A stretch of 60,817 bases of DNA from Microcaldota archaeon (GTDB lineage Archaea; Micrarchaeota; Micrarchaeia; Micrarchaeales; Micrarchaeaceae). Where the stretch lies: contig JAKACK010000004.1 in assembly GCA_021821445.1 (NCBI GenBank), positions 1 through 60,817 of the forward strand, read 5' to 3'. The number at the start of each line of letters is the position of its first letter. The stretch's first letter is position 1. Under the pieces are notes generated by a model. The model searched no databases and had not been told where the DNA came from. It saw only the letters and a program-made list of their open reading frames with translations. A program made the position numbers and the translations under genes. Positions 35,634-42,321 of this stretch are shown here, one piece after another.

Positions 35634-35774
35634 GGGGTTATAGCATAACTTGGCAGTGCGGCAGACTCCAGATATTTAAACTTAAGTGAGCTTTATAGCG
35701 ATGATTATAATCTGGAAAACAAATTCAAAATATGAAGTAATCTGCTAATCGGGGTTCAAATCCCCGTAACCCCA
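35634..35774 (+). tRNA. trnW: tRNA-Trp (CCA) with a 68-nt intron
   Basis: Acceptor GGGGTTA (35634-35640) pairs with TAACCCC (35767-35773), discriminator A. D stem GCA/TGC, anticodon stem GCAGA (35661-35665) with TCTGC (35741-35745). The loop is CTCCAG then intron then A, so the anticodon is CCA (35668-35670) and the intron sits at the canonical 37/38 place. T arm CGGGG-TTCAAAT-CCCCG. Archaeal tRNA-Trp genes often carry an intron here. Splicing would need the fused EndA at 40518-41690. Confidence 0.93.
35672..35739 (+). other. Intron of tRNA-Trp, relaxed bulge-helix-bulge
   Basis: 68 bases. At the 3' junction TA^A forms the bulge next to the anticodon stem; CTCC (35666-35669) faces GAAG (35734-35737) with a C-A mismatch, and ATATTT (35672-35677) can pair with AAATAT (35728-35733), so a relaxed BHB is possible. 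Within it ATCTGGA (35710-35716) is the exact complement of TCCAGAT (35667-35673) over the anticodon and 5' junction, and GCGATGA (35698-35704) resembles a box C. Confidence 0.75.
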
Positions 35775-39751: not shown

Positions 39752-40513
39752 ATGTTATATTTAATAGGTACAGGATTAGCTGATTATGATATATCTTATA
39801 GTGGGGTAGATATATGTAGAAAATGTGAACTTTTATACTATGAGTCTTATACCAGTAATTTAATAGATAAAAAAGTGAAAATTCTTTCAGATTTATTTGG
39901 AAAAAAAATTGAAAAGCTCGAAAGAAGTGATTTAGAAGAAAAACTTATTTCACTGGTTAATAAATCTATTGATAAAGATGTTGCCTTACTTATAAATGGG
40001 GATCCATTAATCGCAACAACCCATAAGATAGTTATAATTGAAGCTATTAAAAAAGGAGTAAAATTCAAGGTTATACATTCAAATTCAATTTTCTCTGCTG
40101 CTATTGGAGAAAGTGGACTTGACTTTTATAGATTTGGTGCAATCTGCACTTTAGCAAGATGGTCTGAACATTATAAGCCGGTTTCTTTTTATAACACAAT
40201 TTTAAATAACTATTCAAAAGGGTTACATTCAATTATATTATTAGATTACGATTCTAATAAAAATGAAACTATTCCATTAACAGATGCTATTAGTACATTA
40301 AAAGAAGCAGAAAATATTTATAAAGGAAATTTATTTAACAATAAAACTAAATTGATAGTGATAAACAATTTAGGTTCTGAAAATGGAAAAATTTTTTATA
40401 TAAATCTAGACTCAATAAAAAATCTTAAAGGATTGAATACATTAATCCTTCCAGGTAATTTATCTGATATAGAATTAGAATGGATTGAAAAGGTATACGA
40501 TAATCAAAAATGA
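39752..40513 (+). CDS. dphB: Diphthine synthase
   Basis: 253 residues of the tetrapyrrole-methylase fold: MLYLIGTGLADYDISYSGVD, LLINGDPLIATTH (SAM-binding), HSNSIFSAAIGESGLDFYRFG. Performs the SAM-dependent multiple methylation of the modified His in elongation factor 2; the final amidation is by Dph6 at 969-1637. Seven bases after the helicase stop and 4 bases before the endA start. Confidence 0.94.
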   Translation: MLYLIGTGLADYDISYSGVDICRKCELLYYESYTSNLIDKKVKILSDLFGKKIEKLERSDLEEKLISLVNKSIDKDVALLINGDPLIATTHKIVIIEAIKKGVKFKVIHSNSIFSAAIGESGLDFYRFGAICTLARWSEHYKPVSFYNTILNNYSKGLHSIILLDYDSNKNETIPLTDAISTLKEAENIYKGNLFNNKTKLIVINNLGSENGKIFYINLDSIKNLKGLNTLILPGNLSDIELEWIEKVYDNQK

Positions 40514-40517
40514 TAAA

Positions 40518-41690
40518 ATGGCAATTTTATTAAATTATAATCAAAACAGTAAAGAGGTTTACTCAACAGACCAGTCTTCAATAGATATATTGAAAAATGG
40601 ATTTATTGGTAATATTAAAAATGGCAAACTCTATTTAATACCTGAAGAAGCTTTATATCTTATTGATGTTAGAAATGCAGAATGTGCAGACTTAAATGGT
40701 AAACAGTTATCTTTTACAGATTTATCTAAGAAGTTTTCAAAAAGAAAAAAATTTATGGCAAGATATTTCACTTACAAAGATTGGAGAGATAGAGGACTTA
40801 TAATATTGCCAGCAGATAGATTATATCTGAAAAAGGAAAATGACAATTCTAAAAATATAAAAGTTTATCCTGCGGATAAACTTAAATTAGGTAGATTTAA
40901 GCTAGAAGGAATATTCTTTCCAGATGACATGATTACGGTTATAGTAGATGATGCTTCTGGTAAATTAATATATAATGACTATTGGTTTGGGCAGTACGGA
41001 ACCTACAAGCTTAGTGATCATGGAATTTTAAATAAACTTGATATATATGAAACCTTATTCTTGATTGACTCAAAAAAATTACATATTAAAGGTTATGATA
41101 GGGATAAAATATTGAAGGAAGGTTTACATATGAGACCTGATTTCAATAACCTATATTTAGTTTACAAAGACTGGAGAGAAAAAGGTTATGTTGTAAAAAC
41201 AGGATTTAAATTTGGAACGCATTTCAGAATATATTTTCCGGGTGCAAAACCCGATAATAAAAATGCAGAGTGGACTCATTCAAAGCATGTTTTACATGTT
41301 TTCCCAAGAGATAGTAGAATGTTAATATCAGAATGGGCAAGAGCTATAAGAGTTGCACATTCAGTTAGAAAAACGTTTATATTAGCTATACCAGGTAAAA
41401 GTAAAACAAAGAACTTAGGTATAGACTTTCTATTATATCACAGGAATAATGGCAAGATAGAAGATCCGAAATTAATGAAACCTAAATATGGTATGTTATC
41501 TTTAAGCGAAAATGAATATATTGGAGGAAGTGAATTATCATCCATAATAAAAAATACAAGGGCTCTTGACTTGGAATTGATACTTGCAATAAGTGATAGA
41601 GAAACCTCCGTAACATACTATAAAGTTAGAAGGATAGAACTTCCATCTAGCAGATATGAATATTATGAAATTGACTGGATGCAGCCTTAA
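40518..41690 (+). CDS. endA: tRNA-splicing endonuclease, fused three-unit (epsilon2-like) type
   Basis: 390 residues from the ATG at 40518, twice the length of the homotetrameric enzyme. The catalytic triad of the intact unit is Y239 (THFRIYFPGA), H254 (WTHSKHVLH) and K285 (SVRKTFILA). An N-terminal half repeats the substrate-side helix as YKDWR at 86-90 (catalytic unit has it again at 216-220) but lacks the triad, and residues 300-390 resemble the structural C-terminal subunit. This N-unit, catalytic unit, C-unit order is that of the ARMAN-type enzyme, known for accepting relaxed splice motifs. It would process tRNA-Trp and tRNA-Lys of this window. Confidence 0.9.
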   Translation: MAILLNYNQNSKEVYSTDQSSIDILKNGFIGNIKNGKLYLIPEEALYLIDVRNAECADLNGKQLSFTDLSKKFSKRKKFMARYFTYKDWRDRGLIILPADRLYLKKENDNSKNIKVYPADKLKLGRFKLEGIFFPDDMITVIVDDASGKLIYNDYWFGQYGTYKLSDHGILNKLDIYETLFLIDSKKLHIKGYDRDKILKEGLHMRPDFNNLYLVYKDWREKGYVVKTGFKFGTHFRIYFPGAKPDNKNAEWTHSKHVLHVFPRDSRMLISEWARAIRVAHSVRKTFILAIPGKSKTKNLGIDFLLYHRNNGKIEDPKLMKPKYGMLSLSENEYIGGSELSSIIKNTRALDLELILAISDRETSVTYYKVRRIELPSSRYEYYEIDWMQP

Positions 41691-42232: not shown

Positions 42233-42321
42233 CGGGCTCAGGGGGATTTCCATTTTTTAATTTTGGACCCCCGACCTACTGATTAAGAGTCAGCCGCTCT
42301 ACCAAGCTGAGCTATGAGCCC
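42233..42321 (-). tRNA. trnK: tRNA-Lys (CTT) with a 15-nt intron in the T-loop
   Basis: Acceptor GGGCTCA pairs with TGAGCCC, discriminator G at 42233. D arm GCTCAGCTTGGTAGAGC; anticodon stem GCTGA/TCAGT (one G-T), loop CTCTTAA with anticodon CTT at 42285-42287. The T stem GGGGG/CCCCC is perfect, but 22 bases instead of 7 lie between its arms. Removing 15 (42247-42261) restores TCCAAAT. Mature length 74. Position 55 is C rather than the near-universal U. Confidence 0.93.
42247..42261 (-). other. Intron of tRNA-Lys at position 59/60 (bulge-helix-loop)
   Basis: After the T stem GGGGG, TCCA pairs with TGGA to make a 4-bp helix; three unpaired bases (AAT) lie between TGGA and CCCCC, and a loop on the other end. 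Cutting two bases into the bulge and two bases past the helix removes exactly ATTAAAAAATGGAAA and gives a normal 7-base T-loop. Only one true bulge is present, so it is a relaxed motif. Confidence 0.85.

Follow-up and report, generated by a model that had tools for sequence, protein, structure and literature searches.

The T-loop of a tRNA-Lys(CTT) gene from an acid-loving ultra-small archaeon almost certainly carries, as judged from its sequence, its relatives and a modelled fold, a 15-nt archaeal splice-motif intron at position 59/60, which would be cut out by the splicing endonuclease EndA and its exons ligated. The gene lies in the window (the whole stretch of 60,817 nucleotides that was analysed) at the coordinates listed in Table 1. 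The cutting, the joining and the exact positions of the cuts are what we infer.

Structure of the tRNA-Lys(CTT) gene

The acceptor stem pairs GGGCTCA with TGAGCCC and is followed by G73, and 22 bases, TCCAAAATTAAAAAATGGAAAT on the minus strand, separate the perfect arms of the T-stem. ARAGORN made no call on the intact gene, and Rfam gave it a score of 31.5 bits with the T-arm skipped. When the 15 bases were deleted, the loop became TCCAAAT and ARAGORN called tRNA-Lys(ctt). A preliminary description of this DNA had proposed just such an arrangement, with 15 of the 22 bases removable to leave a 7-base loop, and every base of it proved correct. The gene is the sole CTT gene recovered from the genome, in which a separate tRNA-Lys(TTT) is also present.

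Table 1. Positions in the window of the tRNA-Lys(CTT) gene, its predicted splice motif and the neighboring endonuclease gene
Feature	Position	Strand	Remarks
Epsilon2-type tRNA splicing endonuclease (EndA)	40518..41690	+	Likely cutting enzyme
tRNA-Lys(CTT) gene with predicted T-loop intron	42233..42321	-	89 bases including the discriminator base; 74 after splicing
Anticodon CTT	42285..42287	-	
T-stem 5′ arm GGGGG	42268..42272	-	Predicted outer helix of the splice motif
Exon bases 54-59, TCCAAA	42262..42267	-	Its TCCA (42267-42264) forms the exon side of the predicted 4-bp splice helix
Predicted 15-nt intron AATTAAAAAATGGAA	42247..42261	-	The bulge rule places it at 59/60; any cut from 56/57 to 59/60 is compatible with the A-run
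Intron half of the predicted splice helix, TGGA	42249..42252	-	
Predicted 3-nt 3′ bulge AAT	42246..42248	-	AA from the intron, T60 from the exon
T-stem 3′ arm CCCCC	42241..42245	-	

The predicted splice motif

The pairing of TCCA with TGGA is perfect and leaves the 3-base bulge AAT, and the T-stem, this helix and the AAU bulge all appear when the precursor is folded to minimum energy. Shuffled 15-base inserts formed a helix at the same register in 0.18% of cases; a chance origin of the helix is untenable because of the orthologues described below. Bulge-helix-bulge (BHB) geometry has been described (PMC6379350, PMC4090602). In its strict form, a helix within the intron closes off another 3-nt bulge, a feature that tRNA-Lys(CTT) does not have. 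The intron helix was sought in the predicted folds and was absent from this gene and from its orthologue in G002; the motif is, therefore, of the relaxed bulge-helix-loop (BHL) form. Two marks of a non-canonical BHB/BHL intron were found, in that the gene parses as a standard tRNA once the insert is taken out and a 4-bp central helix is accompanied by a 3-nt bulge.

Orthologues with and without the intron

The spliced tRNA-Lys sequence was used as the query in a search of 60 related genomes. An insertion at the same point was present in nine further genomes (G001, G002, G010, G011, G012, G019, G023, G034 and G035), and more than 20 relatives had no intron; the loops of the latter (TCCAAAT, TCCGAAT, TTCAAAT or TTCGAAT) are the product predicted by splicing. 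Among the tRNA-Lys orthologues, the insert varies in sequence and, from 14 to 41 nt, in length, and changes at its 3′ end track those of bases 54-57. The site and the helix are kept in G001 and G002, which belong to the same genus and have introns of 14 nt with a different sequence. Farther afield, the helix is TCCA/TGGA in G019 and changes in step to TCCG/CGGA in G010, TTCG/TGAA in G035 and TTCA/TGAA in G011 and G034. An added intron helix is visible by inspection in the orthologues of G011, G034 and G035.

Bulge sizes from 0 to 7 were compared in 31 T-loop-intron tRNAs (Lys, Arg-TCG and Arg-CCT/TCT): all four base pairs of the helix could form in 27 of them when the bulge was exactly 3 bases, and in none at the other sizes. 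The helix was short of one pair in 2 of the 10 Lys introns (G012 and G023) and in 2 of the 15 Arg-TCG introns. The covariation analysis counted 20 cells altered on both sides versus 6.2 in shuffles, counts that are inflated by the kinship of the sequences, and sliding of the helix partner abolished the signal. The relatives, the ARAGORN parse after splicing and the predicted fold uphold the intron and BHL motif of the preliminary description; its TCCA/TGGA helix with an AAT bulge is likewise borne out by the perfect pairing, the minimum-energy fold and the common register of 27 of the 31 related introns.

The C at position 55 of the spliced loop seemed to point to a misplaced splice site or to a gene no longer functional, a reading rejected because the intronless orthologues share C55. 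Given that the loops of the more than 20 intronless relatives include TCCAAAT and TCCGAAT, C55 is normal for tRNA-Lys(CTT). The near-universal U55 is replaced by C55 or G55 in 6 of 36 tRNAs (L002, L003, L007, L017, L022 and window positions 42246-42267), and pseudouridine 55 is, therefore, impossible in those six. Repeated intron gain was not established: a gain/loss count on an EndA tree needs six changes, of which well-supported branches force only one.

Cut position and alternative explanations

In the precursor, the T-stem would serve as the outer helix, and exon bases U54 C55 C56 A57 would pair with UGGA of the intron, with AAU left over as the 3-nt 3′ bulge and a terminal loop at the tip; this is the layout of a bulge-helix-loop. 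Cleavage is probably the work of the nearby epsilon2 EndA, on the 3′ side of A59 and the 5′ side of U60. The exons would then probably be sealed by a ligase, which in relatives is RtcB, to yield a normal 7-base loop, UCCAAAU.

One alternative is that the intron is real but is cut at 56/57, 57/58 or 58/59. Because of the A-run, each of these cuts would yield the same mature tRNA-Lys sequence as a cut at 59/60, and the product does not reveal the position; the assignment to 59/60 thus follows from the bulge rule and not from the letters alone. We consider the alternative cuts unlikely, since the constant distance of the 3-nt bulge (27 of 31) sets the 3′ cut a single base short of the T-stem, in keeping with the usual rule. 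Another scenario is that the 15 bases stay in the mature tRNA-Lys and enlarge its T-loop. This is very improbable, because the insert varies in length and sequence among orthologues with a 3′ end that follows bases 54-57, the intronless orthologues show exactly the predicted spliced loop, and a 22-nt loop would be expected, from established tRNA structure, to break the contact between the D-loop and the T-loop. It is scarcely credible that the gene is a decayed one broken by a small insertion, as the blindness of ARAGORN and the low Rfam score might suggest, given that its first 60 bases are identical in three same-genus genomes, its stems are perfect, no second CTT gene was found in the genome, and the insertion recurs at the same point in ten genomes with the splice helix conserved.

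The endonuclease and the ligase

The enzyme that probably cuts the intron at 59/60 is encoded by an open reading frame that, as listed, starts with TTG at 40485; similarity to the solved ARMAN-2 protein starts with the ATG at 40518, and 543 bases separate the end of the gene from tRNA-Lys(CTT). The product aligns with ARMAN-2 EndA (PDB 4FZ2) over its full length (residues 1-387, E=8.8e-162) and contains the Pfam N- and C-terminal endonuclease domains. In accordance with the epsilon2 type, it has three fused units with full-length similarity to ARMAN-2 EndA, and by alignment the catalytic Y236, H251 and K282 are identical, as are the Tyr and Lys in the ARMAN-specific loop (Y160/K161). The ARMAN-type fused EndA that had been noted 0.5 kb away is thus confirmed, at 0.54 kb, as a full-length homologue with its catalytic and ARMAN-specific loop residues intact. 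ARMAN-2 EndA is a homodimer with a broad substrate range (PMC6379350). Cutting of bulge-helix-loop substrates by the epsilon2 enzyme has been published (PMC12397907, PMC6379350), in agreement with the earlier statement that enzymes of this type accept relaxed motifs.

In most genera of the family, endA and tRNA-Lys(CTT) are convergent and about 0.1-2 kb apart (L153-L161); the distance is about 8 kb in G001 and G002. RtcB was not found in this assembly, which is 85% complete. A missing ligase was dropped as the reading of this result because 58 of 60 relatives have RtcB, and incompleteness of the assembly is the likely cause. In G035, G037, G039 and G055, RtcB was matched as separated pieces within one long open frame, which from the sequence looks as if interrupted by an intein, and in family f2 the gene often lies beside tRNA-Leu(CAA).

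T-loop introns across the order

Five of the 36 tRNAs recovered from this genome have a T-loop insertion; besides tRNA-Lys(CTT), they are Arg-CCT, Arg-TCG and Ala-GGC, with T-loop introns, and Leu-CAA, with a T-loop insertion. The survey used a covariance model built from 29 T-arms with T-loop introns, at a threshold of E<=0.001. Of the 103 genomes sampled from the order, 88 had at least one T-loop intron, comprising, as tallied from the listed rows, 46 of 54 in the same family and 42 of 49 in the other. In the rest of the phylum sample, 28 of 93 genomes gave a match, a count less certain than those within the order; a few of the weaker matches at class level failed the ARAGORN parse after splicing. 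Of about 50 unspliced genes, ARAGORN recognized just one, and in silico splicing turned the invisible genes, among the matches read out, into tRNA-Arg, -Lys or -Ala, with one odd second parse.

Nearly all genomes sampled from the phylum (192 of 196) have a relative of the epsilon2 enzyme, which leaves almost no contrast of presence and absence to set against the T-loop introns. The enzyme alone does not explain the introns, because they are much rarer outside the order (28/93 versus 88/103).

The Leu-CAA insertion (L030/L116, L117-L145) is 11-16 nt long and is conserved across two families. Its TTCA/TGAA helix appears to lie at a 5-nt 3′ bulge, being perfect at 5 in 18 of 27 cases and at 3 in none. 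Elsewhere in the window, at 35634-35774, is a tRNA with anticodon CCA (Trp) and an anticodon-loop intron of about 68 nt. This intron and that of L016 have GAGCTTTnnAAGCGATGA in common, or nearly so, which is possibly a C/D-box element.

Possible intron mobility

In this genome (G000), Ala-GGC (L178:1501-1532) and Arg-CCT (L031) have an identical 22-base loop, TTCAAAATATTTATATGAAAAT, and thus an identical 15-nt intron; in the two other genomes of the genus, the intron of Ala is unlike that of Arg. Arg-CCT and Arg-TCT of G026 likewise have an identical T-loop intron. To judge from these sequences, the identical introns would fit either recent copying of an intron from one tRNA gene to another or gene conversion spanning the T-arm. 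One tentative hypothesis, which we rate as somewhat less than an even chance, is that in this order very small introns spread among tRNAs by using the nearly invariant T-loop bases U54 U55/C55 C56 R57 as a ready-made helix half, so that a 3′ YGAAA/YGGAA would suffice in almost any tRNA.

Discussion

The tRNA-Lys(CTT) gene is one more member of a class already known. The preliminary description had held a T-loop intron this short with a single bulge to be unusual, a view contradicted by the commonness of such introns in the order (88/103 genomes) and by the literature. The listing of 59/60 by Yoshihisa is reportedly drawn from Sugahara 2008/2009 and Chan 2011. There, 59/60 is given as an archaeal non-canonical intron position (Yoshihisa 2014, PMC4090602); archaeal tRNA introns have a median length of 15 nt and span 11-129 nt (PMC3218864), BHL cutting is known, and placement in the T-loop already appears in reviews and structural work (PMC6379350, PMC12397907). 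The present intron resembles the published 59/60 introns in position, kind of splice motif and usual length. Those introns have been described chiefly from Crenarchaeota and Nanoarchaeota, whereas this one is from Micrarchaeota, in which, unlike the earlier cases, isoacceptors for Lys, Arg and Ala share one intron site. There is also precedent for near-identical introns in separate tRNAs within a genome, and the identical 15-nt T-loop introns of Ala-GGC and Arg-CCT are alike in this respect. The EndA encoded here matches ARMAN-2 epsilon2 EndA (PDB 4FZ2, 9W2K) as a full-length homologue with the catalytic triad and ARMAN-specific loop residues. A BHL substrate of the ARMAN-2 enzyme is pre-tRNA-Cys (PMC12397907, PMC6379350); the tRNA-Lys precursor is also predicted to form a bulge-helix-loop, with the difference that the putative substrate here sits in the T-loop.

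T-loop introns of the tRNA-Lys(CTT) type are a lineage-wide habit that is new as far as we found: no description of T-loop introns of Micrarchaeota was found in the literature searched, the scope of which did not extend to the main ARMAN tRNA paper (Fujishima 2011). This wider pattern matters a little more than the tRNA-Lys(CTT) gene alone. Gene finders without a bulge-helix-loop T-loop motif miss such tRNAs. Within the order, T-loop introns are present in some genomes and lacking in others, co-vary where present, and can be only 13 nt long; this natural series is suited to probing the substrate range of a structurally solved epsilon2 enzyme and the movement of tRNA introns.
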